Below, in pieces: positions 1-54,884 of a stretch of DNA of 64,000 nucleotides (position 1 is its first letter; each line of letters starts with the position of its first letter). The position numbers and the translations under genes were made by a program. Origin of the DNA: Lunularia cruciata (taxonomy: Eukaryota; Streptophyta; Marchantiopsida; Lunulariales; Lunulariaceae); NCBI GenBank assembly GCA_948567375.1, contig OX419762.1, forward strand, positions 8,686,001 to 8,750,000. Reading direction: 5' to 3'. The notes beneath the pieces were generated by a model that was given only the letters and a program-made list of their open reading frames with translations, was not told the origin of the DNA and searched no databases.

Positions 1-1012
1 AACTCGACATAAGTAATGTCAGTATTCCTTTTATTCTTGTATAATTGCTAATTAACATGACTCGATTAATTCACTATGAAAGCACCGGTAATGTATTTTC
101 ACTGCACTTATAAATGGTAATCTACGCGGTCGCCCTTTTCTCTATAAATGGTAATCTAAAAGGCAAAGAAAGACCCTTCACGAGGTTCGTCCGAAAAACC
201 TGACAAGATGGTGGGGCAGTACAGTACCTCGATCAGTTCGATAGACGGCAAAAGCAAATTCACACGTTGTTGCGGGTTTAGCTCTTGACTCGCGGGGTAT
301 TATCGCAACACTGAGAGCGGAAGAAAATCTGGCCTCATGTCGGAAGCGAGGAGGAGCATTTTCGCAAGTATTGTAGTGTATGCAACTGCTCGTCCGAGGC
401 AATCGGACCAAGTGAGAGATCTTAAATGGTGTTCTCGTCCCACGAATTGCTCTGCCTGGGTATCTTGAGCTATTATTTCGGGTTTATTTAGTTCGGATTT
501 CGAAATTTTGATTTCTGGAGAGGACGTTCAGGAGTCCTCAAGCTAGCTTTTGGATAGTCACTCCGTTCGATTAGGGATATGGTGGACATTTGTGGACGTC
601 ATCCGGTTGTATCAGTTGGAAAACGTGAGAATACCAAGTTTCTCCAAGGTTTTCGGTGTGAGCTTACTGCGTGATTGTCCACAGAACTGAGCCTGATATC
701 CGGAAACATGACGACCAGAGGAGCTGCTGAGCCGGTAATTCGCTCTTCTGCATTTTTCTGTTACAGAAATTAATCAGGATAAGCTGCTGCAATCAAGTTA
801 CGGTTTGATTCTACACCTTTTACAGTGTCCATATCACGATTTTATTGGGATCTGTTGACTCTAGTGGAATGATCTTTCATCCGATAAGCCCATCTGGTTA
901 TGGGTTAGCTCTAGGTCATCAGATGAACATGCTACCGTCGACTTTGCTATCATCGAAATAGATTAATTTGATCGGATTTTGGGATCATCTAACCGTTTTT
1001 TACGATTTTCAG
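1..1012 (+). other. 5' flank and leader of gene A
   Basis: This stretch aligns with the region before gene B (47302-48365), before fragment C (59799-60871) and, in decayed form, before relic D (33168-33819). It has a GC- and CpG-rich core at about 180-430. A short open frame starts at ATG 208 and stops after 28 codons in A, but runs about 100 codons in B and C, so it is more likely a uORF or noncoding leader than a conserved coding exon. A TATA-like TATAAAT lies at 143-149. The region ends at a splice acceptor (TTTTCAG, 1006-1012) directly before the hydrolase exon, which indicates at least one upstream non-coding exon. The transcription start cannot be fixed from sequence alone. Confidence 0.6.
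124..142 (+). mobile_element. 19-bp LINE 3'-end scrap with 15-bp target duplication
   Basis: The 19 bases match the extreme 3' end of the LINE family found elsewhere in the window (core ACGCGGTCGCC followed by a pyrimidine run). They are flanked by a perfect 15-bp direct repeat, TATAAATGGTAATCT, at 109-123 and 143-157. Fragment C and relic D have the empty site. Gene B has a mutated version at 47423-47441. The insertion therefore predates the A/B split and postdates separation from C and D. It also duplicated a TATA-like motif. Confidence 0.75.
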
Positions 1013-2225
1013 GTGAGCGGCATGATATACGAACTATGCAGGCCTGATAAGGAGAAAATAAAATTGGAAATTTTATTTGTCCATGGGCTTCAATTTGACA
1101 GTCTACAGCCTGAGATCCACCTATCTACGTGGAAGTCGGGAGATTTGGCATCACAGGAGATTTGGCCGAAGACCTGGCTTCGTGAGCGATTTCCATCGGC
1201 TAGAATTTTAATTATAAGATATGATTCTTCTATCATAACCACAGATGATAGGGGTAGATTTGATCTTCATAATTCTGCGGAAAATCTGGCCCGTGATCTT
1301 CTAGATCACGCAGGGGTGGGAAAGTCGACTGCTTGCCCAGTGATATTTGTTGGTCACGGGGTCGGTGGACTTCTGATCAAGCAGTTGTGTTTGCATGTCA
1401 ATGAGAGCAGCAGTTTGTCAACGGTGCCACAAGAAAAATTGAAGATGGAGTGTTTTTTAAGGAGCGTCAAAGGTTTATTCTTCTATGGAACTCCACATAG
1501 AGGAATGGCAGAGCCTGATGGAAAAACCATGCAAAATCCTAGTCCTTTAATGGAGTTCGTAAAATTAATGGGCACCCACGCTTCAAGACTACACCAAAAG
1601 CTGGACATCTTGCGAGAGGTATACAAATGGACTGTAGGTGGAGTTGGAGAGTCCAAGGAAACACACTTGGCATGGGGAAAACAAAGATCGTCGTGGTTAG
1701 AGTTCATCCTCACAGGAGGTTCTTCAGGGAGCTGTTCCCAGGTAATAAGCCTTGATAACTCCGTAAGTACCTTCTTGTCCTCATCAGAATCCTCGGATGG
1801 CTCATAACCCCATTTTCATGCCAAAAACTCAAACCTAACTTACATTATTTGCAAGCTGTGAATGGGTTGTGCCAACTGAGAGCTCCATCTGTAGTTGGAA
1901 CGAGGTGTATCAACAACAGATCTTGATAAACTTTCTCTGAGGTTCTCTTAACGTGGCTGAGCTCCACGCATCCAAATATTATTGACTGATCAAGAGCAGG
2001 TCAGTACTTCTATTGAAAGCGAGATGTTAAAAGTCATACGCACTGACATTTGTCGACGTGTATGCACAGGATGGTTTTTATGGTATGGTTGTGCCCGAAG
2101 GATCCGCAAGATATGCTACTCACATTCATGGATTCACAGTGGTGGATGCGGATCACTTCACATTGTGCCAACCTGAAACCCGGACATCCAACAGTTACTT
2201 ACGTTTGGTTGCCTTTGTGGAACAG
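1013..2225 (+). other. Gene A exons 1-2: alpha/beta-hydrolase domain
   Basis: Exon 1 (1013-1741) encodes the hydrolase core: LEILFVHGL near residue 20 (oxyanion strand), a WLRERFP/RYDSS strand region, the nucleophile elbow VGHGVGG at about 110-116, and FYGTPHRGM. Exon 2 (2070-2225) supplies GMVVPEGSAR and VDADHFTLCQP, whose His (about residue 269) sits where the catalytic His is expected in SERAC1-like hydrolases. The elbow normally reads G-H-S-x-G-G; here residue 113 is Gly (codon GGG at 1358-1360), so the canonical serine is missing. Gene B has the same substitution. Intron 1 (1742-2069) contains an alternative acceptor near 1999 that would put exon 2 in another frame; the acceptor at 2067-2069 keeps the conserved frame. 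Confidence 0.8.
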
Positions 2226-5200
2226 GTACGGTTAAAGTTCGTTGCTGCACATGTTCTAACCTATATGTTGTCTGTCAGATCATGCTTCTCTTCAAGTTGG
2301 CTTGATATACTAGAATATCTCTAAGTTGTCCTCTCACATATTACTTTCATCACGTCTCACAACTAGTTACTCAACCTACGTCTATCGTGCAATGTTTCAG
2401 GTTACTGGAATAGTGGAAGAACCCCGAAAGAGGCCTCGTTCTAACACAAGCCTCAGCACGTATGTCCCACTTCCAGACATAGAGGCAAGCATTCGGAAAG
2501 CGTTGGAAGACGAAGATGTAGTTTTGTTGTATGGCAATCCTGGAAGTGGAAAATCCACTCTATCCAGATACATAAGAAATCACTACTCACGTAGTCCTAA
2601 TGGACTGGAGGGCATGAACAAAGTTGCAACTGGATCCAGCCGGGATCATACGGTTTCTGAGCCCAGAAAGTCCATCGTTATTTTCCTGGAATGTGGGCGC
2701 AGGGCGGAGGTTGGATCCAAGCTGTTGGAACTTTTCCAAACCCTCAGTTCAAAAGCAAGTTCCAGGCCAACCTTCAGGTTAGATCAAGGTGTTCTAATCA
2801 AACAAGGAATACGATCTATACTCGAAATGCAAGAGACTTTGATAATCTTGGATGACGTCTGGGAACAGGGTTTCATCAAAACTTTCGTTGATGACCTTGC
2901 GTTTGATTTACCCGGTCAAGTGAAATTTCTAATCACCTCAAGAAAGGCCACTATATGGAAGTCTTCAATTTCCATAGAAATTCCACCAGTCAGTTTGAAG
3001 AATGCAGAACGTATCCTGGCAGCGCATGCAGGACTTGCAGACCAAGAACTACCGTCTTACTTGAAGGTTTGACCAACCATCTCTATACAACTCTCGTGAT
3101 CAATCGCAAAATATCAATGACGAAATGGTTTTCCAATTTCTCATTCTAAATCCTGTATACTGTTGGATACTGAAGCCCTGTCATACAAAGTCATTATTGT
3201 GCATCGTCTATTCTTTTCAGCTAGGCTAGTTCAAAGCTGAACTTTATTGACTGTTCCACATTTTTTATGTTCTCGATGAAGTTTTGTCACTTAACAGAAC
3301 TTAACTTCACAGAAACGCGTGCCCAACCATGTTATAAGGAATACTTACTTGCGTTTAGTGAAGGAATATCCAGGTTGTCATATTGCATGACACAGGAGGA
3401 AAATCTAATTTCGTCCTACAAAAACTGCAGGGTATTGCTGGCCGTTTGATAAAACAAACAGCGTGCAATCCCTTGGCTCTGGCAATGGCGGGGTCGAGAA
3501 TAACCAAGAGCAAGAACACTATCGACAAGGAGTGGGACGAGGTGACAAAAGGCTACTCGACCACCATAAGAGGGGAAGTGAAAGGCACAGGCACAAGTTC
3601 CCATTTCACACCGGTTTTGGGTTCTCCGTACGGAAAAATCATTAGGGAATCATTGCTGATGACATACCAAGAGCTATCAAAGTATTCTCGACGTTTGCTT
3701 ATCTTGATCGCAAACTGTGAAGGGAAAACCATCCCCGTTCAAGTTGTGCGCAGGTTGTACAGTACAGTACAGAAAGGAGAATATCCAACGACATTCCGCG
3801 ATGACCTCAAGCAACTGAGAGACGATGGAACGATGCTGCAAGTGAACGACAATTCAATTGCAGTCTTTGATCCGGAACTTGCTATCAGTTCGTCGAACCC
3901 TTACAAGTGCAGTTTGTTGAAGTTCGAAACTGTGGGGTTTCACGATTTACAACGGAAGTTCATCAACAACCATGATGAAACGAGATATAGAGTCGGGGAG
4001 TTGATGGATTTCTTACTGGATACCTGTCGCGATGGAGCATCCTCTGTACAAAACACAACAGATGAACAGCGCAGCGCCAGCGAAGAAGTCCTTGCACTTT
4101 GCATCCTTTATTTAAGGAAGCAGTATGCACAGAGAGCCGCCAAATACCTGGGAATACGTGATCCCGACTTGAAGCTTTTCAAGGAACTACGGGTTGCGCT
4201 AGAACCTCTTGTTACCCTGTTGTGTGAGCAACTCTCAGAGGACGAAGGTCGCCAGTACGAAAGCTCAGACAGTGAGGAGGAGCGCAACCAACCGTCAAGG
4301 AGAGAGAATAAGGGCGAAGTGGACTTGGACAAAATAATGTGTTGTGCGAAGCAGGTACGGGATGGATACTTCCTCAAGGATATAGCTGTGTGTTTTCCAC
4401 CTAGTAAATGCATGACACCCAATATTCAAACCTTAGTTATAGATATTAAGGTACGTACCCTAAACTCCGGGAACTATTCCGGGCATGAAAATGTTAGCTA
4501 TTTTTTATGTGGCTAAGTTAATCAAGATTATTGTCATTCAAGTTAAATGGCTTTTTGTCCAAGTCCATTGGGAGATACTAAGCCTATATAGCTCTTGCTT
4601 TCTCTTGGGGAAATTCCTCATGAATTCCTTGCAATGAACAACGTTGCTATTAACCGAAGCTACGTAATTTTGCGTAATCTCTGACGGGTGAATATCTGAC
4701 TTCATGAGGTTTAATTGTTTTTCATCAGAGATCTTGTTTTAGTTAATAGAGTGGACATCTAGCATGTGCATAGGGTTTGAAGATTGAGGCTTTTACGAGG
4801 GAATTTCGTAAATCTCGATTTGTGTTTTTGACTTTGACAAGACTTGAGTTACTATAATCACCATAAATGAATCCTGTCTAGTTTTGCTTCTAATGACGAG
4901 AATTGTACGCATTCCCCCCTTGCCCAGGTAATGATCAACATCGTTTGCAACGGTGAACTCCACGACCATAGTCTTGTAACTTTGCTGTCCTCTTTGAAGT
5001 TTGGGCCAGCCATTGCCTCCGTATTGATGAACCTATCCTACACGAGATTGCTCTCAACACTGAAGGGTCCCATACCCCGGACGATCCAGAGGTTGATCGA
5101 TTCTTGGCACGGAGATATAAGCCAACCACCGCATATCAGGGCAGTTCACTTGTGTTGTCTTTTTTTCCTATTGGAGTTCCCCGGTCCTGCACAAGGCATT

Positions 5201-8200
5201 CAAGCATTACCTGGGGCCATTGAGGCACTGGTGAATTCCTACTGGCTTGATCATGGGGATTCTTTAGTGCTCTCGCTGCACAAAATACATACTTTTTGTG
5301 CTTTGGCCTCCCACGATGTACTTCATAAGAACATAGGAGAAGTCCGTGGGGCCATCCCGAAGCTGCTGTCATTGATCCAGAAGAATAGCGGGGAAATTGC
5401 TTTACAAGAGGCATTGATGACAGCGTTGTGCAGTTTGACATGCACTGAGTCGAATCGAAAGCAGATTCTGGAACACCATTCCGGTGTTGAAGGACTGGTG
5501 AAGCTCTTGGACGGTGAGACGAGCTCCGACTTCCTTGTTAGTTTGGCACGGATACTAGGGAATGTGGCAATCGACATAGAAGGACAGAAGAAAATCGGAG
5601 AAGTCCGTGGGGCCATCCCGAAGCTGCTGTCATTGATCCAGAAGAATAGCGGGGAAATTGCTTTACAAGAGGCATTGATGAGAGCGTTGTGGAATTTGAC
5701 AAACAGGAATGAGTCGAATCGAAAGCAGATTCTGGAACACCATTCCGGTGTTGAAGGACTGGTGAAGCTCTTGGACGGTGAGACGAGCTCCGACTTCCTT
5801 GTTAGTTTGGCACGGATACTAGGGAATGTGGCAATCGACATAGAAGGACAGAAGAAAATCGGAGAAGTCCGTGGGGCCATCCCGAAGCTGCTGTCATTGA
5901 TCCAGAAGAATAGCGGGGAAATTGCTTTACAAGAGGCATTGATGACAGCGTTGCACAATTTGACAAACAGGAATGAGTCGAATCGAAAGCAGATTCTGGA
6001 ACACCATTCCGGTGTTGAAGGACTGGTGAAGCTCTTGGACGGTGAGACGAGCTCCGACTTCCTTGTTAGTTTGGCATTTACACTAGCGAGTGTGGCAATC
6101 GACATAGAAGGACAGAAGAAAATCGGAGAAGTCCGTGGGGCCATCCCGAAGCTGCTGTCATTGATCCAGAAGAATAGCGGGGAAATTGCTTTACAAGAGG
6201 CATTGATGAGAGCGTTGTGGAATTTGACATGCACTGAGTCGAATCGAAAGCAGATTCTGGAACACCATTCCGGTGTTGAAGGACTGGTGAAGCTCTTGGA
6301 CGGTGAGACGAGCTCCGACTTCCTTGTTAGTTTGGCATTTACACTAGCGAGTGTGGCAATCGACATAGAAGGACAGAAGAAAATCGGAGAAGTCCGTGGG
6401 GCCATCCCGAAGCTGCTGTCATTGATCCAGAAGAATAGCGGGGAAATTGCTTTACAAGAGGCATTGATGAGAGCGTTGTGGAATTTGACAAGCACTGAGT
6501 CGAATCGAAAGCAGATTCTGGAACACCATTCCGGTGTTGAAGGACTGGTGAAGCTCTTGGACGGTGAGACGAGCTCCGACTTCCTTGTTAGTTTGGCACG
6601 GATACTAGGGAATGTGGCAATCGACATAGAAGGACAGAAGAAAATCGGAGAAGTCCGTGGGGCCATCCCGAAGCTGCTGTCATTGATCCAGAAGAATAGC
6701 GGGGAAATTGCTTTACAAGAGGCATTGATGAGAGCGTTGCACAATTTGACATGCACTGAGTCGAATCGAAAGCAGATTCTGGAACACCATTCCGGTGTTG
6801 AAGGACTGGTGAAGCTCTTGGACGGTGAGACGAGCTCCGACTTCCTTGTTAGTTTGGCATTTACACTAGCGAGTGTGGCAATCGACATAGAAGGACAGAA
6901 GAAAATCGGAGAAGTCCGTGGGGCCATCCCGAAGCTGCTGTCATTGATCCAGAAGAATAGCGGGGAAATTGCTTTACAAGAGGCATTGATGGGAGCGTTG
7001 TGGAATTTGACATGCACTGAGTCTAATCGAAAGCAGATTCTGGAACACCATTCCGGTGTTGAAGGACTGGTGAAGCTCTTGGACGGTGAGACGAGCTCCG
7101 ACTTCCTTGTTTGTTTGGCATTGACACTAGCGAGTGTGGCAATCGACATAGAAGGACAGAAGAAAATCGGAGAAGTCCGTGGGGCCATCCCGAAGCTGCT
7201 GTCATTGATCCAGAAGAATAGCGGGGAAATTGCTTTACAAGAGGCATTGATGAGAGCGTTGTGGAATTTGACAAACAGGAATGAGTCGAATCGAAAGCAG
7301 ATTCTGGAACACCATTCCGGTGTTGAAGGACTGGTGAAGCTCTTGGACGGTGAGACGAGCTCCGACTTCCTTGTTAGTTTGGCATTTACACTAGCGAGTG
7401 TGGCAATCGACATAGAAGGACAGAAGAAAATCGGAGAAGTCCGTGGGGCCATCCCGAAGCTGCTGTCATTGATCCAGAAGAATAGCGGGGAAATTGCTTT
7501 ACAAGAGGCATTGATGACAGCGTTGCACAATTTGACAAACAGGAATGAGTCGAATCGAAAGCAGATTCTGGAACACCATTCCGGTGTTGAAGGACTGGTG
7601 AAGCTCTTGGACGGTGAGACGAGCTCCGACTTCCTTGTTAGTTTGGCATTTACACTAGCGAGTGTGGCAATCGACATAGAAGGACAGAAGAAAATCGGAG
7701 AAGTCCGTGGGGCCATCCCGAAGCTGCTGTCATTGATCCAGAAGAATAGCGGGGAAATTGCTTTACAAGAGGCATTGATGACAGCGTTGCACAATTTGAC
7801 ACACAGGAATGAGTCGAATCGAAAGCAGATTCTGGAACACCATTCCGGTGTTGAAGGACTGGTGAAGCTCTTGGACGGTGAGAAGAGTTTAAAGTTTTTT
7901 CGTAGTTTGGCATTGACAGTAGGGAATGTGGCAATCGACATAGAAGGACAGAAGAAAATCGGAGAAGTCCGTGGGGCCATCCCGAAGCTGCTGTCATTGA
8001 TCCAGAAGAATAGCGGGGAAATTGCTTTACAAGAGGCATTGATGGCAGCGTTGTGCAGTTTGACATGCACTGAGTCGAATCGAAAGCAGATTCTGGAACA
8101 CCATTCCGGTGTTGAAGGACTGGTGAAGCTCTTGGACGGTGAGAAGAGTTTAAAGTTTTTTCGTAGTTTGGCATTGACAGTAGGGAATGTGGCAATCGAC

Positions 8201-10438
8201 ATAGAAGGACAGAAGAAAATCGGAGAAGTCCGTGGGGCCATCCCGAAGCTGCTGTCATTGATCCAGAAGAATAGCGGGGAAATTGCTTTACAAGAGGCAT
8301 TGATGGCAGCGTTGTGCAGTTTGACATGCACTGAGTCGAATCGAAAGCAGATTCTGGAACACCATTCCGGTGTTGAAGGACTGGTGAAGCTCTTGGACGG
8401 TGAGACGAGCTCCGACTTCCTTGTTAGTTTGGCACGGATACTAGGGAATGTGGCAATCGACATAGAAGGACAGAAGAAAATCGGAGAAGTCCGTGGGGCC
8501 ATCCCGAAGCTGCTGTCATTGATCCAGAAGAATAGCGGGGAAATTGCTTTACAAGAGGCATTGATGACAGCGTTGCACAATTTGACACACAGGAATGAGT
8601 CGAATCGAAAGCAGATTCTGGAACACCATTCCGGTGTTGAAGGACTGGTGAAGCTCTTGGACGGTGAGACGAGCTCCACCTTCCTTGGTAGTTTGGCACG
8701 GATACTAGGGAATGTGGCAATGGACATAGAAGGAAAGAAGAAAATCGGAGAAGTCCGTGGGGCCATCCCGAAGCTGCTGTCATTGATCCAGAAGAATAGC
8801 GGGGAAATTGCTTTACAAGAGGCATTGATGAGAGCGTTTCACAATGTGACATGCACTGAGTCGAATCGAAAGCAGATTCTGGAACACCATTCCGGTGTTG
8901 AAGGACTGGTGAAGCTCTTGGACGGTGAGAAGAGTTTAAAGTTTTTTCGTAGTTTGGCATTGACAGTAGGGAATGTGGCAATCGACATAGAAGGACAGAA
9001 GAAAATCGGAGAAGTCCGTGGGGCCATCCCGAAGCTGCTGTCATTGATCCAGAAGAATAGCGGGGAAATTGCTTTACAAGAGGCATTGATGAGAGCGTTG
9101 TGGAATTTGACATGCACTGAGTCGAATCGAAAGCAGATTCTGGAACACCATTCCGGTGTTGAAGGACTGGTGAAGCTCTTGGACGGTGAGACGAGCTCCG
9201 ACTTCCTTGTTAGTTTGGCACGGATACTAGGGAATGTGGCAATCGACATAGAAGGACAGAAGAAAATCGGAGAAGTCCGTGGGGCCATCCCGAAGCTGCT
9301 GTCATTGATCCAGAAGAATAGCGGGGAAATTGCTTTACAAGAGGCATTGATGGGAGCGTTGCACAATTTGACAAACAGGAATAAGTCGAATCGAAAGCAG
9401 ATTCTGGAACACCATTCCGGTGTTGAAGGACTGGTGAAGCTCTTGGACGACGAGAAGAGTTTAAAGTTTTTTCGTAGTTTGGCATTGACAGTAGGGAATG
9501 TGGCAATCGACATAGAAGGACAGAAGAAAATCGGAGAAGTCCGTGGGGCCATCCCGAAGCTGCTGTCATTGATCCAGAAGAATAGCGGGGAAATTGCTTT
9601 ACAAGAGGCATTGATGGGAGCGTTGCACAATTTGACAAACAGGAATAAGTCGAATCGAAAGCAGATTCTGGAACACCATTCCGGTGTTGAAGGACTGGTG
9701 ATGCTCTTGGACGGTGAGAAGAGTTTAAAGTTTTTTCGTAGTTTGGCATTGACAGTAGGGAATGTGGCAATCGACATAGAAGGAAAGAAGAAAATCGGAG
9801 AAGTCCGTGGGGCCATCCCCAAGCTGCTGTCGTTGATTCTCAAAGAAGACGGCAGTACAGAATTACAAGAGGCACTGATGGGAACTTTAAAACAATTAGC
9901 CATGTTGGAAGCTAATCGGATCCAGATCATGGAGGATCCGGGCACTCTCGAGGGATTAGTGAAACTTGTTGATGCCGGTAAGGGTTTTGGGTACCTTTAC
10001 GAGCTTTGTCAGACAATATATTTCCTGTCCATTGAAAGTGAAGGTGCGATGAAACTAGGGAATGTTTCTGGCGCTATTTCCAAAGTGCTAACATTCATTC
10101 TGCAAGATGATGGGAATACCCCATATGACGTTCAAGAGATATTAGTGTTAGTCTTGCAACGTTTAGTGGTGGTGAAAGGCAATCGAAGGCAGATTCTAGA
10201 AACTCGTGGAGGACTAGAGGGATTGTTGCAACTGGTGGATGGTTGGAAGAGTTGTCGGTACCTTGAAGGGGTGGCATCCATATTGGCTAGCGTGGCAATT
10301 GACGCAGAAGGTACAAAGTACGCAGGAGTAGTTTCTAGAAGTATATCCAAGCTCGTAATCTCTGTCTTACAAAATAACTATTGTGGTGCATTTGAAGCGA
10401 AGTTGATAGAATCGTTACTTAGTCGTTGCTTAATCTAG
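1022..10438 (+). CDS. Gene A: alpha/beta-hydrolase - NB-ARC - ARM repeat receptor (HNL-like NLR)
   Basis: Predicted coding exons are 1022-1741, 2070-2225, 2401-3066, 3431-4450 and 4928-10438 (stop TAG), about 2690 residues. Every intron has GT-AG ends and every junction is phase 0, and the same sites are conserved in gene B. The ATG at 1022 is the first in the exon that begins at 1013; an upstream in-frame coding exon cannot be excluded. Domain order: SERAC1-type hydrolase (about 1-292), NB-ARC with P-loop GNPGSGKST (about 337-345) and kinase-2 LIILDDVW (about 439-446), CNPLAL (GLPLAL-like), a FHDLQR motif at the MHD position, an acidic linker, then ARM repeats to the C terminus. In NLR biology the NB-ARC is a nucleotide switch and the repeat array senses ligand or self; hydrolase-NBS proteins are the liverwort HNL class. 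The role here is inferred: intracellular immune receptor. No disabling mutation was found along the proposed exons. Confidence 0.85.
2401..4450 (+). other. Gene A exons 3-4: NB-ARC ATPase and linker
   Basis: Exon 3 (2401-3066) carries a short basic/proline-rich lead, then P-loop GNPGSGKST, kinase-2 LIILDDVW, an RNBS-B-like KFLITSRKA and the AERILAAHAGL helix. Exon 4 starts at 3431, chosen because it continues phase 0 and joins directly to GIAGRLIKQTACNPLALAMAG; the acceptor at 3396 would hit a stop. Exon 4 continues through the ARC/winged-helix region with LKQLRDDGTMLQV and VGFHDLQRKF (His-Asp of the MHD motif with Phe replacing Met), then a helical region and an acidic Ser/Glu linker (SDSEEE). 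In A the exon ends TTAAG followed by gtacgt. Introns are 3067-3430 and 4451-4927. Confidence 0.85.
5336..9796 (+). repeat. Array of 17 tandem double-ARM units (261/264 bp)
   Basis: Units start at 5336, 5597, 5861, 6125, 6386, 6647, 6908, 7169, 7433, 7697, 7961, 8222, 8483, 8747, 9008, 9269 and 9533. Length is 261 bp when the loop reads CTES or STES and 264 bp when it reads NRNES, HRNES or NRNKS. Residues 1-28 of the unit are identical in all 17 copies, and 40-60 and 77-87 are nearly so. Variation is confined to residues 29-39 (for example TALCSLT, RALWNLT, TALHNLT, GALHNLT) and 61-76 (TSSDFLVSLARILGN, TSSDFLVSLAFTLAS, KSLKFFRSLALTVGN and others). Silent differences are rare, pointing to recent amplification or gene conversion. 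Confidence 0.95.
9797..10322 (+). repeat. Two divergent terminal ARM units of gene A
   Basis: Unit 18 (9797-10057) begins with the same GEVRGAIPKLLSLI but diverges after it (LKEDGSTELQEALMGTL...). Unit 19 begins at 10058 with GNVSGAISKVLTFI. Gene B has clear orthologues at 54243 and 54504. These caps differ from the homogenised units yet are well conserved between A and B, so they escape the homogenisation acting on the array. Confidence 0.85.
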
Positions 10439-25955: not shown

Positions 25956-26951
25956 TATTCCCCCACCACTAGTTAGTGACGTCCTCATCACCATTGTAGC
26001 TTCAAACTCTTGGATGGCTATTTGTACATTTTGGAGATGAGAAAGAGGCTCCCAAGTGGCATCATGAAGGGAATACCCTTTCTAGAGGACTTTGTATTCT
26101 ATATGTTGTCGATGACTTGTTGAATGTGGCAACGTGCAAGGATACAATTAACTTAAAACTCCTCATGATCATTGATAGGGATGGGAAGAGAAGGAGGTTG
26201 GACACAAAAGGAAAAAGAAGTTGGATAGGAACAACGGGTGTCAACGTGGAAGCATGAAAGATAGGGTGGATGCGCATGTGAGAAGGCAAGGCAAGTCGAT
26301 AAGCAACAAGAGAAATTATTTTGGTGACATCAAAGGTTCCTATCCAATTAGGAGCAAGTTCACAAACTTGGGTAACAAGTGGAAGGGGTAGGTTACTAGA
26401 GGAGAGCATGAGCTTATCACCAAGTTGAGAGGTGAGATCACAATGATGGTGGTACGCATATTTTTTTGGATGATTTTGAGCAACAAAGAGATGAGATTTG
26501 ACTTGTTGGAGGGATTGGGATATGGTAGTCAAGAAGGTGGAAGTATGAGGGACATGAGATAGAGGAGGAACAAGAAGGGAATTTGGAACAAGTGGGTCTT
26601 GGCCAAAATTAAGGAAGAAAGGAGAGAATCCGATGCTTGTCTATTTGGAATTATTGTATGCAAACTCATTAGTTGCCAGACATTCATCCCAATTGGTATG
26701 GTGAATATTAGCAAAGGCATGAAGCATATCTTCTAGGTGTGATTTGCATGTTTGGTTTGTCCATCAGTTTGAGGATGACAAGCCATGGACAAAGTAAGCT
26801 TAGTGCCAAGTATCTAAAAGAGTGCTTGCCAAATTTTTCTAAGGGATCAAGGATCACGGTCAGAGATGAGTACACGAAGCATCCCATGATGCTTGAAGAC
26901 ATTGTCAAAGTAGATCTACACCAATGTTGGAGCATCCACAATATCAAAGGT

Positions 26952-32136: not shown

Positions 32137-33954
32137 ATAGGCTTTGAAGAATTTCCCACTCACTTGATTACCCGTCAAAAGAAAATGAGTGATAAGCATT
32201 CAACTATAAATGAACACAAATTAAGTATATGCTTACAATAACAAACATGCTCTTGGATCCTAGCTAGACCATGCATCAGGGCATTCCAACTTGCACCAAC
32301 TACTTTCTCTACAGTGATGAGGTTTCGCTTAGGTTTGGTCCACCCATCTGCATCTTCATTACTCATTTGTGAGTGTGGTTCCACACTAGATACAACAGCA
32401 GTCCATATGAGGACAGAGGATAGCTATCCATGATGCTATTAGGGACATAATGTTTGCTTTAGCACGAGAGAGTTGATACTTGGCTTGGTCAGTGCATTTG
32501 TATGCTTTGTAAACGACACGTGTTAGGGCAGATTTATACTTGGTCCAAGATGATCAGGTGATAGTAGCGGATGTCATGGTTACGTACCCTACACATGATA
32601 CAATTTCAGAGAGAGTGATAACCCATCCCCATGGATGGGTGGCAAGTGCAGCTGTAAGTTGTAAGGTCTCCAAGTATATGGACATGCAGCGAGGTCATCT
32701 CTTTGTTCCTCTAGCCTTGGAGTTATATGGAGGGTTGGACACTACATTCAATCACAGTTTTCAAGGAGTGCGCAAGAGCTTATCATGTTAGGTGCTAGGG
32801 AGTCCCACTCTCACTCTCATACTTTGTAGCACATTTTAGACAGTGTGAGCGTGTGTCCATTGCTCTACATAGGGTAGTGGCTGGTGCAATCAATAAGAGA
32901 GCAATCACACTAGGTGATGCTTCTTCAGATGGTTTAGTTGTTTGTAGACCATATGACATGCATAGCTCAAATATCTTAGGTACAATAGGGCAAATTTCTC
33001 ATATAGACTCTATTGTGGCCTAGTCCCATTTTAGCTCTTTTGTCTCTCCCTTGTAAGGCTTGATGGGGTCTTCCCATCCTTCATGTTCTCTATGCGGTCA
33101 CCTTTTCCAATAACAAAAAACAAACAACATTTCAATAGAATGAAACCATACACAATGTTGTACCTTTAACTCAACACAAGTAATGTCACTATTGCTTTTA
33201 TTCTAATAGAACAAGGCCAATTGACATGACTCGATTACTATGAAAGCATCGGTAATGTATTTTCACTGCACATATAAATGGTAATCTAAAAAGGCAAAGA
33301 AAGACCTTTCACAAGGTTTTCCCAACAAACCTGACAAGATGATGGGGCACTACAATACCTCAATCAGTTCAATAGACTAGTAAAGCAAATTCACACATTG
33401 TTGCGGGTGTAGCCATAGATTTGTGGGGTATTATCACAACAATAGTGATTCTCCATAGAATTGAGCATGATATGCAGGAATATGACAACCAAAGGAGCTG
33501 CCAAGTGGGTAATTCACTATTTTGCATTTATTTGTTATAGAAACCAAGGATCTTGGTTGCAGTTAATCAAGATAAGCTGTTGCAATCAAGTTATGATTTG
33601 ATTCTACACCTTTTACATGTCCATGTTACAATTTGATCAGGATCAATTGATTGTAATGGAATGATCTTTTATTTGATAAGCCCATTTGGTTATGGTTTAG
33701 CTTTAGGTCATCAAAAACATGTTATTGTTGATGTTGCTTTTATTGAAATAGATTAATTAATCAAAGAGATTAATTTTATTGGATTCTAGAATCATCTAAC
33801 CATTTTGTATAATGTTCAAGTGACCAACATGGTATACAAACTATGCGGTCCTCATAAGGAGAAAATAAAATTGAAAATTTTAATGTTCCATGGGCTTCAA
33901 TTTGACAATCTAGGACTTGAGATCCACCTATCTACTTGGAAGTTGTACATTGTA
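32137..33954 (+). pseudogene. Relic D: decayed 5' part of a hydrolase-NB-ARC-ARM gene
   Basis: 32137-32245 and 33108-33819 match the leader of genes A, B and C; a LINE insertion (32246-33107) splits them and about 400 bp of leader is deleted near 33437. 33820-33954 matches the start of exon 1 (ATGGTATACAAACTATGCGG) and then stops abruptly at gypsy sequence. CpG sites of the other copies are mostly TpG or CpA here, and the exon 1 acceptor CAG|G has become CAAG. The copy is dead. Confidence 0.8.
32246..33107 (+). mobile_element. LINE fragment with C-terminal ORF remains (about 860 bp)
   Basis: The longest copy of the family here. It retains a frame at 32540-32791 (KYMDMQRGHLFVPLALELYG) and, after a frameshift, ERVSIALHRVVAGAI ... 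RAITLGDASSDG ... GQISHIDSIVA and a stop at about 33020, followed by the ~90-bp 3' tail. The F-x-P-x-x-x-E-x-Y-G phrase is reminiscent of the C terminus of some LINE polyproteins (recollection, not a search). The flanking repeat CAATAACAAA (32236-32245 and 33108-33117) is compatible with target-site duplication. Confidence 0.65.
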
Positions 33955-34734: not shown

Positions 34735-35156
34735 TGTAAAAGACCAAAACCGAGGAGAGAAATAGGAGAATGGAACTCACATTGGGACACTTGAATGAGG
34801 GAAAACTCTGAATGCCTAGCATGAGCTTTGGCTTTGGTATTTATAGATAGCATACAAGACCCTTGAAGCTTCTCAAGAAGCTTTCTTGAGCCGCTTTCTT
34901 GGAGTGCAAGCCAAGCTTCTCAAGAAGCTTCTCAAGAAGCTTCCTTCTAGAAGCTGCCTACTTGGCGTGCAAGCTAAGCTAATTAGAAGCTTTGAGAAGC
35001 TTCCTTCTAGAAGCTACCTGCTTAGGGCACAAGTTAACTAGTTGGGAAGCTTCACAAGAAGCTTCTTAGATACTTCTAGAATATTCTAGGCTATTTTGTC
35101 TTATTCTCTACTTTGTAAGCCCGACTAACTTTGTTGCTAAACTCCATATTGTTACA
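34735..35156 (-). repeat. 3' LTR of the full-length gypsy element
   Basis: 422 bp, TG...CA ends, rich in AAGCTTCT/AGAAGCTT palindromic motifs. It has only a few differences from the partner LTR, several of them transitions. Confidence 0.9.
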
Positions 35157-36480
35157 TATTCCCCCGCCGCTAGTTGGTGACGTCCTCGTCGCCAATGAAG
35201 CTTTGAATTCCTTGATGGTCATCTGTGCATTTTGGAGGTGGGAAAGAGGTTTCCATGTGGCATCATGAAGGGGATACCCTTTCCAAAGGATCTTGTGCTC
35301 CATATGTTGGGGACGGCCTCGTTGAATATGACAACATGTAAGGATATGATCAACTTCATACTCCTCATGATCATTGATAGGGACAGGCAGAGGAGGAGGT
35401 TGGACTCGAGAGGAAAAGGAAGAGGGGTTAGGAACAAAGGGTTTCAACTTGGAAACATGAAAGACAGGATGGATATGCATGTGACAAGGCAAGGCAAGTC
35501 GATAAGCAACAGGAAAGACAATGTGGGTGATATCAAAGGGTCCTATCCAATTAGGAGCAAGTTTACGAACTTGGGTATCAAGTGGGAGAGGGAGGTTACT
35601 AGAAGATAACATGACTTTATTGCCAACTTCAAAGGTGAGATCACAATGATGGTGATCCGCATATTGTTTTTGGCAATTCTGAGCAACAAGGAGGTGAGAC
35701 TTGGCTTGTTGGAGAGATTGGGATATAGTGGTCAAGAATGTGGAAGTATGAGGAACCTGAGAGGGAGGGGGAGCAAGAAGAGAATTTGGAACAAGCGGAT
35801 TTTTGCCAAAATTGAGAAAGAAGGGAGAAAATCCGGTGTTGCTTGTTTGGAATTGTTGTAGGCAAATTCTACAGCTGCAAGACATTCATCCCAGTTGGTA
35901 TGGTGGACATTGACAAAGGCCCGCAACATATCCTCCAATGTATGATTGGCGCGTTCAGTTTGTCCATCAGTTTGAGGATGATAGGTTATGGACAAAGCAA
36001 GCTTGGTGCCGAGTATCTGGAAGAGTGCTTGCCAAAACTTTCCTATAAATTGAGGATCACGGTCGGAGATGAGTACACTTGGCATCCCATGATGCTTGAA
36101 GACATTGTCAAAGTATATTTGCGCTAAAGTTGGAGCATCCACGGTATCACAGGTTGGTGCCAAGTGGATTTGCTTACTAAGCTTATCCACAAACACCATG
36201 ATTACGGTGTGTCCTTGTTTTGTCTTTGGCAAGGATGCGATGAGATCCAAGCTCACATGCTCCCAACGAGCGGATGGAATGGCCAGTGGTTGAAGGAGTC
36301 CACTCGGCTTTTGGTTGCTAGCCTTGTTCCGTTGGCAACTCTCACATGATCAAACAAAGTCTCGAACATCTCGTGACATGTTGGGCCACCACCATTGGCG
36401 TTGGAGGGTGCCCAAGGTCTTGTCCACTCCCATGTGACCAGCTATTGGTAAATCATGGGCTTCTTGAAGGCGCACAAGTC
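35091..36480 (-). pseudogene. Gypsy integrase with chromodomain
   Basis: A zinc-binding HHCC region (about 36480-36310) contains one in-frame TGA before SCESCQRNK. The catalytic core (36256-35732) shows MSLDLIASLPK, ISDRDPQF and QTDGQTERAN with the D, D and E of the DDE triad. A frameshift leads to 35885-35091, with VMLSSSNLPLP and then a chromodomain (DHILTCCHIQ ... ILWKGYPLHDATWKPLSHL). The last codons run through the PPT into the LTR. Confidence 0.85.
35157..35170 (-). other. Polypurine tract
   Basis: On the minus strand the 3' LTR is preceded by GCGGCGGGGGAATA, the expected plus-strand primer of an LTR retrotransposon. Confidence 0.75.
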
Positions 36481-48365: not shown

Positions 48366-49578
48366 GTGACCGACATGGTATACGAACTATACAGTCCTGA
48401 TCAGGAGAAAATAAAATTGGAAATTTTATTTTTCCATGGACTTCAATTTGACAGTCTAGAACCTGAGATCCACCTTTCTACTTGGAAATCGGGAGGTTTG
48501 GCATCACAGGATATTTGGCCGAAGACCTGGCTTCGTGAGCACTTTTCATCGGCTAGAATTTTAACTATAAGATATGATTCTTCTATGATAACCACAGATG
48601 ATAGTGGTAGATTTGATCTTCACAATGCAGCGGAAAATCTGGCCCGTGATCTTCTAGATCACGCAGGGGTGGGAAAGTCGACTGCTTGCCCAGTGATATT
48701 TGTTGGTCACGGGGTCGGTGGACTTTTGATCAAGCAGTTGTGTTTGCATGTCAATCAGAGCATCTGTTTGTCAAGGCTGCCACAAGAAAAAATGAAGATG
48801 GAGTGTTTCTTAAGCAGCGTCAAAGGTTTATTCTTCTATGGAACTCCACATAGAGGAATGGCACAACCTGATGGAATAACCTTGCAAAATCCTAGTCCTT
48901 TAATGGAGTTCTTTAAATTACTGAACCCGCACGCTGTAAGACTAGACCAAAACCTGGAGAACTTGCGACTGCGCTACGAATGGCTTGTTGGTGGAGTAGG
49001 AGAGACCAAGGCAACACGCTTGGCATGGGGGAAACAAAGACCGTCGTGGTTAGAGTTCATCCTGACAGGAGTTTCTTCAGGGAGCTGTTCCCAGGTAATA
49101 AGCCTTGATAACTCTGTAAGTACCTTCTTGTCCTCATCAGAATTCTCAGATGGCTCATAACCCCATTTGCATGCCAAAAACTCAAATCTAACTTACACTA
49201 TTTGCAAGCTGTGAATGGGTTGTGTCAACCGAGAGCTCCATCTGTAGTTGGAACGAAGTGTATCAACAACAGATCTTGATAAACTTTCTCCGATTTCCTC
49301 TTAACTTGGCTGAGCTCCACGCATCCAAATATTATTGAATGATCAAGAGCAGGTCAGTATTTCTATTGAAAGCGACATGTTAAAAGTCATAGGCCCTGAC
49401 ATTTGTCGACGTGTATGTACAGGACGGTTTTTATGGTATGGTTGTGCCGGAAGTTTCCGCAAGATATGGTACTCACAGTGGTGGATTCACAATGGTGGAT
49501 GCGGATCACATCACATTGTGCCAACCTGAAACCCAGACATCCAACAGTTACTTACGTTTGGTTGCTTTTGTGAAGCAG
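48366..49578 (+). other. Gene B exons 1-2: alpha/beta-hydrolase domain
   Basis: Same architecture as in A: LEILFFHGL, VGHGVGG with Gly at the nucleophile position (codon 48711-48713), FYGTPHRGM, then GMVVPEVSAR and VDADHITLCQP with the catalytic-position His. Differences from A are scattered missense changes. Confidence 0.8.
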
Positions 49579-52500
49579 GTACGGTTAAAGTTCGTTGCTG
49601 CACATGTTGTAGCCTATATCTTGTCTGCCAGATTATGTTTCTCTTCAAGTTGGCTTGATATACTAGAATATCTCTAAGTTGTCCTCTCACATATTACTTT
49701 CATCACGTATCACAACTAGTTACTCAACCTACGTCTATCGTGCAATGTTTCAGGTTACTGGAATAGTGGAAGAACCGCCAAAGAGGCCTCGTTCTAACAC
49801 AAGCCTCAGCACGTATGTCCCCCTTCCAGACATAGAGGCAAGCATTCGGAAAGCGTTGGAAGACGAAGATGTAGTTTTGTTGTATGGCAATCCTGGAAGT
49901 GGAAAATCCACTCTATCCAGATACATAAGAGATCACTACTCACGTAGTCCTCATGGACTGGAGGGCATGAACAAAGTTGCGACTGGATCCAGCGGGGATG
50001 ATACGGTTTCTGAGCCCAGAAAGTCCATCGTTGTTTACCTGGAATGTGGGCGCGGGGCGTTGGTGGCATCTAAGCTGTTGCAACTTTTCCAAACCCTCAG
50101 TTCAAAACCAAGTTCCAGGCAAACCTTCAGGTCAGATCAAAGTGTTCTGATCAAACAAGGAATACGATCTGTACTCGCAAAGCAAGAGACTTTGATAATC
50201 TTGGATGACGTCTGGGAACAGGGTTTCATCAAAACTTTCGTTGATGACCTTGCGTTTGATTTACCCGGTCAAGTGAAATTTCTAATCACCTCAAGAAAGG
50301 CCACCATATGGAAGTCTTCAATTTCCATAGAAATTCCACCAGTCAGTTTGAAGAATGCAGAACGTATCCTGGCAGCGCATGCAGGACTTGCAGACCAAGA
50401 ACTACCGTCTTACTTGAAGGTTTGACCAACCATCTCTATACAACTCTCGCGATCAATCGCAAAATATGAAAGAAGAAATGGTTTTCCGATTTCTCATTCT
50501 TAATCCTGTATACTGTTGGATACTGAAGCCATGTCATACAAAGTCATTATTATACATCGTCTATTCTTTTCAGCTAGGCTAGTTCAAAGCTGAACTTTAT
50601 TGACTGCTCCACATTTTTTATGATCTCGATGAAGTTCTCTGTAACTTAACAGAAACGCGTGCCCCATCATGTTATAAGGAAGAATATCTTGCATTGAGTG
50701 AAGGAATATCCAGGTTGTGATATTGCTTGACACAGGAGGAAAAGCTAATTTCGTCCTACAAAAACTGCAGGGTATTGCTGGCCGTTTGATAAAACAAACA
50801 GAGTGCAATCCCTTGGCTCTGGCAATGGCGGGGTCGAGAATAACCAAGAGCAAGAACACTATCGACAAGGAGTGGGACGAGGTGGCTAAAGGCTACTCGA
50901 CCACCATAAGAGGGGAAGTGAAAGGCACAGGCACAAGTTCCCGTTTCACACCGGTTTTTGGTTGTCCGTACGAAAAGATCATTTGGGAATCATTGCTGAT
51001 GACATACCAAGAGCTATCAAAGAATTCTCGACGTTTGGTTATCTTGATCGCAAACTGTGAAGGGAAGACCATCCCCGTTCAAGTTGTGCGCAGGTTGTAC
51101 ACTACAGCACTGGAAGGAGAATATTCAACGACATTCCGCGATGACCTCAAGCAACTGAGAGACGATGGAACGATGCTGCAAGTGAACGACAATTCGATTG
51201 CAGTCTTTGATCCGGAACTTGCTATGAGTTCGTCGAACCCATACAAGCGCAGTTTGTTGAACTTTGAAACTGTGGGGTTTCACGATTTACAACGGAAGTT
51301 CATCAACAACCATGATGAAACGAGATATAGAGTCGGGGAGTTGATGGATTCCTTACTGGATACCTGTCGCGATAGAACATCCTCTGTACAAAACACAACA
51401 GATGAACAGCGCAGCGCCAGCGAAGAAGTCCTTGCACTTTGCATCCTTTATTTAAGGAAGCAGTATGCACAGAGAGCCGCCAAATACCTGGGAATACGTG
51501 ATCCCGACTTGAAGCTTTTCAAGGAACTACGGGTTGCGCTAGAACCTCTTGTTACCCTGTTGTGTGAGCAACTCTCAGAGGACGAAGGTCGCCAGTACGA
51601 AAGCTCAGACAGTGAGGAGGAGCGCAACCAACCGTCAAGGAGAGAGAATAAGGGCGAAGTGGACTTGGACAAAATAATGTGTTGTGCGAAGCAGGTACGG
51701 GATGGATACTTCCTCAAGGATATAGCTGTGTGTTTTCCACCTAGTAAATGCATGACACCCAATATTCAAACCTTAGTTATAGGTACGTACCCTAAACTCC
51801 GGGAACTATTCCGGGCATGAAAATGTTAACTATTTCTTATGTGGCTAAGTTAATCAAGATTATTGTCATTCAAGTTAAATGGCTTTTTGTCCAAGTCCAT
51901 TGGGAGATACTAAGCCTATATAGCTCTTACTTTCTCTTGGGGAAATTCCTCATGAATTCCTTGCAATGAACAACGTTGCTATTAACCGAAGCTACGTAAT
52001 TTTGCGTAATCTCTGACGGGTGAATATCTGACTTCATGAGGTTTAATTGTTTTTCATCAGAGATCTTGTTTTAGTTAATAGAGTGGACATCTAGCATGTG
52101 CATAGGGTTTGAAGATTGAGGCTTTTACGAGGGAATTTCGTAAATCTCGATTTGTGTTTTTGACTTTGACAAGACTTGAGTTACTATAATCACCATAAAT
52201 GAATCCTGTCTAGTTTTGCTTCTAATGAGGAGAAGTGAACACATTCCTCCCTTGCCCAGGTAATGATCACCATCGTTTGCAACGGTGAACTCTGCGACCA
52301 TAGTCTTGTAACTTTGCTGTCCTCTTTGAAGTTTGGGCCAGCCATTGCCTCCGTATTGGTGAACCTATGCGACACGAGGTTGCGCTCAACACTGAAGGGT
52401 CACATACCCCGGACGATCCTGAGGTTGATCGATTCTTGGCACGGAGATACAAGCCAACCACCGCATATCAGGGCAGTTCACTTGTGTTGTCTTTCTTGGC

Positions 52501-54884
52501 TATCGGAGTTCCCCGGTCTTGCACAAGGCATTCAAGCATTACCTGGGGCCATTGAGGCACTGGTGAATTCCTACTGGCTTGATCATGGGGATTGTTTTGT
52601 GCTCTCGCTGCACAAAATACATACTTTGGGTAGTTTGGCTTCCCACGATGTACTTCAGAAGAACATAGGAGAACTCCGTGGGGCCATCCCCAAGCTGCTG
52701 TCATTGATCCAGAAGAATAGCGGGGAAATTGCTTTACAAGAGGCATTGATGGGAGCGTTGGGGAATTTGACATGCACTGAGTCTAATCGAAAGCAGATTC
52801 TGGAACACCATTCCGGTGTTGAAGGACTGGTGAAGCTCTTGGACGGTGAGACGAGCTCCCAGTATCTTCGTTTCTTGGCATATACACTAAGGAATGTGGC
52901 AGTCGACATAGAAGGACAGAAGAAAATCGGAGAAGTCCGTGGGGCCATCCCGAAGCTGCTGTCATTGATCCAGAAGAATAGCGGGGAAATTGCTTTACAA
53001 GAGGCATTGATGACAGCGTTGCACAATTTGACAAAGAGGAATGAGTCGAATCGAAAGCAGATTCTGGAACACCATTCCGGTGTTGAAGGACTGGTGAAGC
53101 TCTTGGACGGTGAGACGAGCTCCCAGTATCTTCGTTTCTTGGCACATACACTAAGGAATGTGGCAATCGACATAGAAGGACAGAAGAAAATCGGAGAAGT
53201 CCGTGGGGCCATCCCGAAGCTGCTGTCATTGATCCAGAAGAATAGCGCGGAAATTGCTTTACAAGAGGCATTGATGAGAGCGTTGTGGAATTTGACATGC
53301 ACTGAGTCTAATCGAAGGCAGATTCTGGAACACCATTCCGGTGTTGAAGGACTGGTGAAGCTCTTGGACGGTGAGAAGAGTTTAAAGTTTTTTCGTAGTT
53401 TGGCATTTACACTAAGGAATGTGGCAATCGACATAGAAGGACAGAAGAAAATCGGAGAAGTCCGTGGGGCCATCCCGGAGCTGCTTTCATTGATCCAGAA
53501 GAATAGCGGGGAAATTGCTTTACAAGAGGCATTGATGGGAGCGTTGTGGAATTTGACAAACAGGAGTGAGTCGAATCGAAAGCAGATTCTGGAACACCAT
53601 TCCGGTGTTGAAGGACTGGTGATGCTCTTGGACGGTGAGACGAGCTCCCAGTATCTTCGTTTATTGGCATATACACTAAGGAATGTGGCAATCGACATAG
53701 AAGGACAGAAGAAAATCGGAGAAGTCCGTGGGGCCATCCCCAAGCTGCTGTCATTGATCCAGAAGAATAGCGGGGAAATTGCTTTACAAGAGGCATTGAT
53801 GGAAGCGTTGTGGAATTTGACATGCACTGAGTCTAATCGAAAGCAGATTCTGGAACACCATTCCGGTGTTGAAGGACTGGTGAAGCTCTTGGACGGTGAG
53901 ACGAGCTCCCAGTATCTTCGTTTCTTGGCATATACAGTAAGGAATGTGGCAATCGACATAGAAGGACAGAAGAAAATCGGAGAAGTCCGTGGGGCCATCC
54001 CGAAGCTGCTGTCATTGATCCAGAAGAATAGCGGGGAAATTGCTTTACAAGAGGCATTGATGAGAGCGTTGCACAATTTGACAAACAGGAATGAGTCGAA
54101 TCGAAAGCAGATTCTGGAACACCATTCCGGTGTTGAAGGACTGGTGATGCTCTTGGACGGTGAGACGAGCTCCGACTTCCTTGTTAGTTTGGCACGGGTA
54201 CTATGGAATGTGGCAATCGACATAGAAGGAAAGAAGAAAATCGGAGAAGTCCGTGGGGCCATCCCCAAGCTGCTGTTATTGATTCTCAAAGAAGACGGCA
54301 GAACAGAATTACAAGAGGCACTGATGGGAACTTTACAACAATTAGCCATGTTGGAAGATAACCGGATCCAGATCCTAGGGGATCCGGGCACTCTCGAGGG
54401 GTTAGTGAAACTTGTTGATGTTGGTAAGGGTTTTGTGTACCTCTACCGGCTTTGCCAGACAATATATTCCCTGTCCATTGAAAGCGGAGGTGCGATGGAA
54501 CTAGGGAATGTTTCTGGCGCCATTTCCAAAGTGCTAACATTCATTCTGCAAGATGATGGGAGTATCCCATATGACGTTCAAGAGATATTAGTGTTAGTCT
54601 TGCAACGTTTAGTGGTGGTGAAAGGCAATCGAAGGCAGATTCTAGAAACTCGTGGAGGACTAGAGGGATTGTTGCAACTGGTGGATGGTTGGAAGAGTTG
54701 TCGGTACCTTGAAGGGGTGGCATCCATATTGGCTAGCGTGGCAATTGACGCAGAAGGTACAAAGTACGCAGGAGTAGTTTCTAGAAGTATATCCAAGCTC
54801 GTAATCTCTGTCTTACAAAATAACTATTGTGGTGCATTTGAAGCGAAGTTGATAGAATCGTTACTTAGTCGTTGCTTAATCTAG
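48375..54884 (+). CDS. Gene B: hydrolase - NB-ARC - ARM paralogue, ARM exon out of frame
   Basis: Exons match gene A: 48375-49094 (after acceptor 48363-48365), 49423-49578, 49754-50419, 50771-51782 and 52260-54884 (stop TAG). Exons 1-3 have exactly the same lengths as in A. Exon 4 is 8 nt shorter because ATATTAAG before the donor (4443-4450 in A) is absent, so it ends in phase 1 while exon 5 needs phase 0. Normal splicing gives a stop at 52286-52288 and an 860-residue hydrolase-NB-ARC protein without ARM repeats. Either B is a recent pseudogene, it encodes a truncated regulator, or another splice pattern restores the frame. The ARM exon itself stays open over 2.6 kb and starts with an in-frame ATG (52263). 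Confidence 0.8.
49754..51782 (+). other. Gene B exons 3-4: NB-ARC and linker
   Basis: P-loop GNPGSGKST, LIILDDVW, KFLITSRKA, CNPLALAMAG and VGFHDLQRKF are all intact. The acidic linker is identical to that of A from about 51370 onward. The exon ends TTATAG followed by gtacgt. Confidence 0.85.
52260..54884 (+). other. Gene B exon 5: ARM-repeat exon
   Basis: 874 codons plus stop. The lead region matches A, followed by six near-identical double-ARM units, two divergent units (54243 and 54504) and the partial end. Open throughout despite the upstream frame problem, which suggests the exon 4 lesion is recent or is bypassed. Confidence 0.85.
52668..54242 (+). repeat. Array of 6 tandem double-ARM units in gene B
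   Basis: Units start at 52668, 52929, 53193, 53454, 53718 and 53979. The constant parts equal those of gene A almost base for base, but the second variable patch is mostly TSSQYLRFLAYTLRN, a form absent from A. One unit has the KSLKFFRSLAFTLRN form and the last has TSSDFLVSLARVLWN. Confidence 0.95.

Follow-up and report, generated by a model that had tools for sequence, protein, structure and literature searches.

Does the array of near-identical armadillo (ARM) repeats encoded at this Lunularia cruciata locus form a sensor whose ligand-facing residues have been diversified by selection, or does its pattern of variation merely record the turnover of a tandem array? The window analyzed here comprises 64,000 nucleotides (nt) of contig OX419762.1. 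A first-pass annotation had described in it an NB-ARC protein with a modular ARM array whose variation is confined to predicted groove-lining positions, and had likened its logic to that of TALE repeats and lamprey VLRs. The genome searched for relatives totals 566 Mb in 74 contigs, and the features recovered are collected in Table 1.

Table 1. Features of gene A and its paralogues (positions refer to the window unless another location is named)
Feature	Location	Strand	Basis or remark
Gene A, predicted six-exon gene	708-10438	+	Splice sites by eye; joined frame open throughout
Gene A exons	708-734, 1013-1741, 2070-2225, 2401-3066, 3374-4450, 4928-10438	+	
Alpha/beta-hydrolase-like domain, N-terminal, two exons	1013..2225	+	Homology to liverwort hydrolase domains
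NB-ARC exon (P-loop GNPGSGKST, Walker B LIILDDVW)	2401..3066	+	Pfam PF00931
Remaining NB-ARC region and linker exon	3374..4450	+	Counterparts in genes B and C
N-terminal ARM-domain cap	4928..5335	+	74 genome-wide matches; mostly pLDDT under 50
Array A, tandem repeat of a double-ARM unit (17 units, 261/264 bp each)	5336..9796	+	
Array A cassettes	Codons 29-39 (cassette 1) and 63-77 (cassette 2) of every unit		
Degenerate terminal unit and C-terminal ARM cap	9797..10438	+	Stop codon 10436-10438
Gene B, paralogue	48366..54884	+	Hydrolase exons 48366-49094, 49423-49578; NB-ARC frame 49679-50425
Gene B, further parts	Linker match 50708-51781; ARM exon 52260-54884	+	
Array B, 6 units	52668..54242	+	Same positions variable, residues partly different (Q66, F70, Y73, R76)
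Gene C	Directly downstream of window (L019; hydrolase L019:1355-2567)		9 units, exons open
Genes F and G	Contig C7		Open arrays of 10 and 12 units, each plus degenerate unit
Gene I			At least five diverged units
Gene H			Two units, then stops
Gene D			About six units, many frameshifts
C11 array, remote paralogue	G000:C11:49005281-49008280 (L035)		31% identity in ARM cap

The array occupies most of the last exon (~5.5 kb, mostly armadillo) of gene A, a model obtained by splice prediction from the genomic DNA alone and checked by joining the exons in frame. The introns, whose splice sites were read by eye, are all GT-AG and all in phase 0, and the predicted product of 2,721 amino acids combines an alpha/beta-hydrolase-like domain, an NB-ARC domain, and ARM repeats. 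The NB-ARC identity is confirmed by a PF00931 score of 42.2 bits (cut-off, 23.5; E = 7.5e-11). A Pfam search returned no family for the exon that follows, in which we take CNPLALAMAGS to be GLPL-like and FHD to be MHD-like. The hydrolase domain is 32 to 45% identical to those of seven liverwort proteins, five of which are NB-ARC proteins, and matches Pfam DUF676 only below threshold (E = 0.032). In a set of 5.8 billion sequences, the top-scoring proteins for gene A come from liverworts (Riccia, Calypogeia, and Marchantia); the N-terminal region yielded 18 matches among 8,000 candidates scored, and the whole ARM exon yielded one (Riccia fluitans P0001) among 7,999. Over array A, Pfam reports many ARM-like families plus chance ones, and the Pfam results and an AlphaFold2 model rule out a leucine-rich repeat (LRR) identity for the sensor. 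Long antisense open reading frames over the array (window 5323-8766 and others, minus strand, up to 1,147 amino acids) arise simply because a stop-free unit of 261/264 bp is repeated.

Reading the DNA unit by unit reproduced the annotated extent of the array and its 17 units, nine of 87 and eight of 88 amino acids, with a degenerate unit beginning at position 9797. The units average 94.7% identity in DNA and 89.6% in protein, and 16 of the 17 are distinct. In a numbering of 88 columns, in which the variable segment annotated as 61-76 becomes columns 62-77, codons 1 to 28 contain no nucleotide difference, synonymous ones included, in any of the 17 units. Codons 40 to 62 vary only at 40 (synonymously), 57, and 61, in one unit each, and codons 78 to 88 vary only at 80 (one unit) and 85 (two units). 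The other variable columns are 29, 31-34, 36-39, and 63-77 except 71 and 72. Constancy and diversification adjoin within a single 261-bp unit.

An AlphaFold2 model of modest confidence (mean pLDDT, 70.5) predicts helix 3 at residues 21-34 and 64-78 of the first unit, and alignment to Vac8 pairs LGNVAID with LSNIAVD, in agreement with the annotated register of the groove Asn. Model and alignment together support an ARM fold with the variable residues in helix 3. From the helix register and known ARM complexes, these residues are expected to lie on the exposed concave face, and columns 67, 68, 74, and 75 probably lie in the buried stripe of the helix. Importin-alpha and designed ARM proteins grip their peptides in extended form, by means of an array of Trp and Asn residues lining the concave face. 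We defined a groove set as N-11, N-8, N-7, N-4, N-1, and N in both repeats, that is, the nine positions named in the first-pass annotation and their first-repeat counterparts 22, 25, and 26; the set also draws on importin contacts (the Trp array, Gln181, and Asn) and in part on general knowledge of designed ARM libraries. The open-access PubMed Central literature yielded no source for the positions randomized in such libraries.

Variation in array A is concentrated in the groove set (permutation P = 1e-5 over the 88 columns; P = 0.001 within the helix-3 spans alone, rising to 0.01 when their limits are moved slightly), although this test is partly circular because nine of the positions were read off array A itself. 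The arrays of paralogues B and C are out of sample: array B alone gives P = 1.5e-4, and array C alone and B and C together reach the permutation floor of 1e-5 over the 88 columns and 0.0016 to 0.0017 within helix 3. When the 32 units are pooled (17 from A, 6 from B, and 9 from C), mean entropy is 1.16 in the groove set versus 0.16 at other positions, and the six most variable of the 88 positions (73, 29, 76, 32, 66, and 70) all belong to the groove set and to the nine originally named. Every shift of the pooled set by -7 to +7 scores below the true register, with the face-preserving shifts (+7, +3, -3, and +4) next. The groove Asn itself varies in array A, N33 being replaced by Ser in 3 of 17 units and N76 in 6 of 17. 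The claim that variation is confined to the groove nevertheless goes too far, since the 12 groove positions hold 51% of the amino acid entropy of array A (64% with columns 36-38 added). Roughly half of its variability lies at non-groove columns, mostly inside the same two blocks, and non-groove block sites 63, 65, 68, 74, and 75 are variable too, largely as linked haplotypes. These statistics leave out the degenerate unit that closes each array (A, B, C, F, and G) as well as all units of D, H, and I.

Gene A is one of a family. A tblastn search of the 100-kb flanks of the window detected a single further array, that of gene C, whose hydrolase exon is 90% identical to that of gene A. Relative to A and C, gene B lacks 8 bp at its linker-exon donor (junction 51773-51792), so that the predicted splice would join the ARM exon in the wrong frame; the array is still open and varies at the same positions. 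Among the 150 scored matches listed in a search with the hydrolase, 24 (A, B, and C included) are at least 61% identical over at least 210 of 243 residues. We examined six regions downstream of hydrolase matches, D to I, and found arrays or array remnants in all except E, which has no array within 10 kb. Genes A, C, F, and G each have a single open ARM frame of 1,140 to 1,855 codons with 9 to 17 units, and unit numbers across paralogues are 6, 9, 10, 12, and 17. The ARM cap has 74 matches genome-wide, some with stops; 44 lie in stop-free open frames of at least 400 amino acids, and the range of these frames (406 to 2,192 amino acids) suggests that paralogues differ widely in unit number. At C2:2.68-3.49 Mb there is a cluster of 12 cap matches, nine with stop-free frames of 449 to 1,500 amino acids (four of them 1,072 amino acids) and three with stops.

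Arrays more distant from A resemble it in part. In F and G (core set of 19 of 22 units, with F01, G01, and G02 left out; 21 of 22 with first units), entropy is 1.17 in the groove set versus 0.48 elsewhere (P = 4e-5), and site entropies correlate with those of A, B, and C (r = 0.54); positions 4 and 36-38 are also strongly variable, and position 85 varies. The C11 array, the one match read among the 33 cap matches below 50% identity, contains nine whole 87-amino-acid units in the 3 kb read, inside the 2,192-amino-acid open frame. Its units are alike (91% matches by a tandem-repeat finder) and unlike those of array A, so high-identity ARM arrays are present in separate branches of the family. 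The bias in C11 is weaker than in A, B, and C and is shifted: the most variable positions are N+3 of both repeats, followed by N-1, and the groove set gives P = 0.044 overall and 0.009 within helix 3.

The units show signs of exchange as well as conservation. Array A pairs 11 versions of cassette 1 with 5 of cassette 2, in 15 combinations. By the four-gamete test, 247 of 465 informative site pairs conflict, which, barring recurrent mutation, calls for five or more exchange intervals and supports the annotated picture of a constant scaffold carrying recombined cassettes. Units A03 and A09 are identical in DNA, as are B06 of gene B and C09 of gene C; one version of cassette 2 is common to genes B and C, and three versions of cassette 1 are common to at least two genes. 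Unit DNA identity is 0.92 to 0.95 within and among A, B, and C, 0.87 to 0.88 within and between F and G, and 0.81 to 0.83 between the two groups. Identities, four-gamete conflicts, and the sharing of B06 and C09 point to concerted evolution within and between loci.

The excess of nonsynonymous change anticipated at the variable sites is present in the A-B-C clade, contrary to the dN/dS outcome that the first-pass annotation had named as refuting. Counted as minimum codon changes across the 32 units, the blocks, which were chosen after array A had been seen, hold 51.5 nonsynonymous and 4.5 synonymous changes, and the remaining columns hold 12 and 7 (a Fisher test of 52:4 versus 12:7 gives P = 0.004); for A and B only, the contrast is 44:4 versus 9:4 (P = 0.055). 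The 12-site set has 33 nonsynonymous and 2 synonymous changes (binomial P = 0.011). Codon models, in which duplicate units were collapsed and codon 37 (an indel), and codon 1 too in F and G, were excluded, estimate omega on a fixed tree at 3.2 for the whole unit, 28 for the 12 groove sites (P = 1e-5), and 1.6 for the remaining sites (not different from 1); on three random topologies the values are 13 to 39 at the 12 sites and 0.92 to 1.0 at the rest. Genes B and C alone give 9.7 at groove sites (P = 0.003) and 1.2 elsewhere. Exchange between units runs counter to the assumption of a tree and may inflate omega, so we trust the direction of these estimates and not their size. The excess is limited to A, B, and C: groove omega is 1.0 to 1.5 in F and G (0.74 elsewhere, neither clearly different from 1) and 0.85 in C11.

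Outside the array, the N-terminal ARM cap also differs between A (4928-5335) and B (52260-52667) mainly by nonsynonymous changes (22 versus 2 synonymous; pN, 0.071; pS, 0.021), an excess absent from the other exons compared.

A recently amplified array could acquire such blocks by neutral dynamics, as surviving older or converted haplotypes or as a local mutation hotspot, in which case no selection on binding would be involved. Pairwise synonymous divergence is indeed raised in the blocks as well (0.089 versus 0.003 in array A), long linked haplotypes (KSLKFFR...) bring synonymous changes along, and omega is near 1 in F, G, and C11. Because that divergence is carried by few linked haplotypes, a minimum-change count for A and B yields only an approximately 2-fold synonymous rise (4 per 22.5 sites in blocks versus 4 per 49 outside), as opposed to an 11-fold nonsynonymous one (44 per 58.5 versus 9 per 134). 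Groove omega exceeds 1 in A and also in B and C, which are out of sample, and separately homogenized arrays vary at the same positions. The helix-phase signal is unclean in single arrays, in that a -3 shift scores slightly above the set itself in array B (0.774 versus 0.765), +3 ties in array F, and +3 and +4 score higher in C11; this slightly weakens the case for a diversified sensor and strengthens that for neutral dynamics, which on balance we still regard as unlikely to explain the pattern.

We therefore favor, as the likely interpretation, that gene A encodes an NLR-like STAND receptor of hydrolase-NB-ARC-ARM architecture, with the solenoid as a diversifying, modular recognition sensor. 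The scaffold of 87/88-amino-acid double repeats would be kept uniform by recombination among units and neighboring genes, and the exposed helix-3 face of both ARM repeats would be diversified by selection and then reshuffled. The groove would bind a ligand, for which an extended peptide or a partner protein is the likeliest candidate, originating from a pathogen or from a guarded host protein, and binding would throw the NB-ARC switch and engage the hydrolase-like output. The roles of switch and output are assigned by analogy with NLR architecture, and ligand binding, an immune function, and signaling are all inferred.

The output itself may not be enzymatic. The nucleophile elbow reads GHGVGG, with Gly in place of Ser, in genes A (1013-2225), B (48366-49578), and C (L019:1355-2567), whereas gene A retains the DADH region. 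Among nine aligned hydrolase rows, the nucleophile is Ser in four, Gly in three, Asp in one, and Cys in one, and loss of the catalytic Ser looks like a repeated event in the hydrolase-NB-ARC receptor class. Enzymatic signaling by the A, B, and C domains is doubtful given the missing Ser, and with Ser in only four of the nine rows, the output may work without catalysis or via a partner.

The parallels originally drawn with TALEs and VLRs are overstated. TALEs consist of 34-amino-acid repeats with a two-residue DNA code, and lamprey VLRs are put together somatically from LRR cassettes that flanking donors supply; the array is built of 87/88-amino-acid ARM units and is not LRR, neither a residue code nor somatic assembly was observed, and we assign it to neither family. 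The closest precedent is found in fungal NLRs with highly conserved WD, ANK, or TPR repeats, from which a regime of conserved, face-diversified sensor repeats is already known. Like gene A, the Podospora NWD family (HET-D/HET-E, with WD40 repeats) and its like are STAND receptors whose tandem sensor repeats are at least about 85% identical and evolve in concert, both at one locus and across loci, with diversifying selection acting on the binding face (the concave one in ANK and TPR proteins); their sesB-like N-terminal domain is presumably also an alpha/beta-hydrolase. Three papers describe the regime on WD, ANK, and TPR repeats (PMC4986451, PMC1805685, PMC12222747), and the first of them places the variable positions of Podospora Pa_2_10340 (sesB-like/NB-ARC/TPR) on the concave face. 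The same paper (Dyrka et al., PMC4986451) reports high internal repeat conservation in only 0.4% of green-plant ANK, TPR, and WD repeats and strong enrichment in fungal NLRs; the word armadillo is absent from its main text.

The fungal type is defined by repeats of more than 85% identity that span 100 amino acids or more of an NLR-like protein; array A lies above this threshold (mean of 89.6% in 17 units), and positive selection at binding-surface positions is found in A, B, and C but is not significant in F and G or in C11. The fungal proteins have fungal hosts and WD, ANK, or TPR scaffolds, whereas gene A has liverwort relatives and ARM repeats; repeat number has been shown to vary between fungal strains, whereas here paralogues of one genome have 6 to 17 units. 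Because its best-scoring relatives are liverwort proteins and its repeats are ARM, array A would work like the fungal high-conservation NLRs but is not a member of that group.

Since the nearest described precedents are allorecognition genes, such arrays might alternatively serve self/non-self, mating, or symbiont recognition, with a polymorphic self protein as the ligand, as HET-C is for HET-D/HET-E. We know of no obvious counterpart of heterokaryon incompatibility in land plants, and we judge this alternative to be quite improbable. It is more improbable still that the array is a relic or an assembly artifact, with a unit number made by the assembler or genes in decay: a deletion breaks the frame of gene B, frameshifts are numerous in gene D, gene H stops after two units, and some of the 74 cap matches carry stops, but the open frames of A, C, F, and G would not be expected under unconstrained decay, and array A, with 16 of 17 units distinct, is not a simple stutter.

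Among plant proteins, the candidate receptor has several partial counterparts. The liverwort HNL class, or Hyd-NLRs (Chia et al. 2024), shares the hydrolase N terminus and the NB-ARC domain and, according to passages in Xue et al. (2012), introns in phase 0 both within the hydrolase and at its border with the NBS. Hyd-NLRs are described with LRRs (PMC3352924, PMC11218826), in place of which gene A has a C-terminal ARM array. The class also has one intron behind the NBS; gene A instead has an intron within its NB-ARC region, another preceding the ARM exon, and a third preceding the hydrolase, and so two further introns. Given the ARM array, gene A is related in architecture to the HNL class but is not a typical member. 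Calypogeia fissa P0006, which aligns with 75% of the query region at 29% identity, is likewise hydrolase-NB-ARC-ARM, and R. fluitans P0001 is NB-ARC-ARM-TPR; in both, unlike in gene A, the ARM repeats are mutually diverged by eye, form no near-identical array, and are accompanied by C-terminal TPRs. The CC-NB-ARM type (rice RLS1), conserved in plants, also places ARM repeats after NB-ARC (PMC12512272) but has a coiled-coil N terminus rather than a hydrolase-like one, and passages of that paper mention no high-identity array. Importin-alpha and designed ARM proteins resemble array A in fold and groove use, but the groove Trp and Asn residues are conserved in importin-alpha and the groove positions are variable in array A. 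In the open-access PubMed Central literature (CC0, CC BY, and CC BY-SA), judged mostly from titles and the openings of abstracts, we found no plant NLR reported to carry near-identical ARM units with a variable groove. Relative to the fungal precedent, what is new is the ARM scaffold, the plant host, and the hydrolase-NB-ARC-ARM architecture, which P0006 already has with diverged repeats.

Diversity of plant NLRs is mostly framed in terms of LRRs, and here a fungal-type regime would operate in a plant, on another scaffold, across a multigene family of one genome. A bolder reading, which we offer tentatively and think somewhat doubtful, is that the family constitutes a programmable, array-based immune repertoire in a land plant: dozens of NLR genes with interchangeable ARM units whose half-cassettes recombine separately, with germ line conversion and selection generating the diversity, each double repeat reading a short stretch of peptide and the order of the array setting specificity. 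Such a repertoire, if real, would be a natural counterpart of designed armadillo repeat proteins, which, according to PMC6838082, bind one dipeptide per repeat. Since the geometry of peptides in the ARM groove is well understood, array order could yield testable ligand predictions.

The surroundings of genes A and B contain fragments of further copies and of mobile elements. Truncated gene 5' ends, spanning the 5' flank to the hydrolase start, lie at window positions 33168-33943 and 59887-61157 and are 75 to 88% identical to gene A; the second ends abruptly within the hydrolase. Between the two genes, retrotransposon pieces at 35091-37903 and 26062-26532, both on the minus strand and presumably Ty3/gypsy-like, include chromo, Tf2-1-like SH3, and reverse transcriptase matches and a sub-threshold integrase match.
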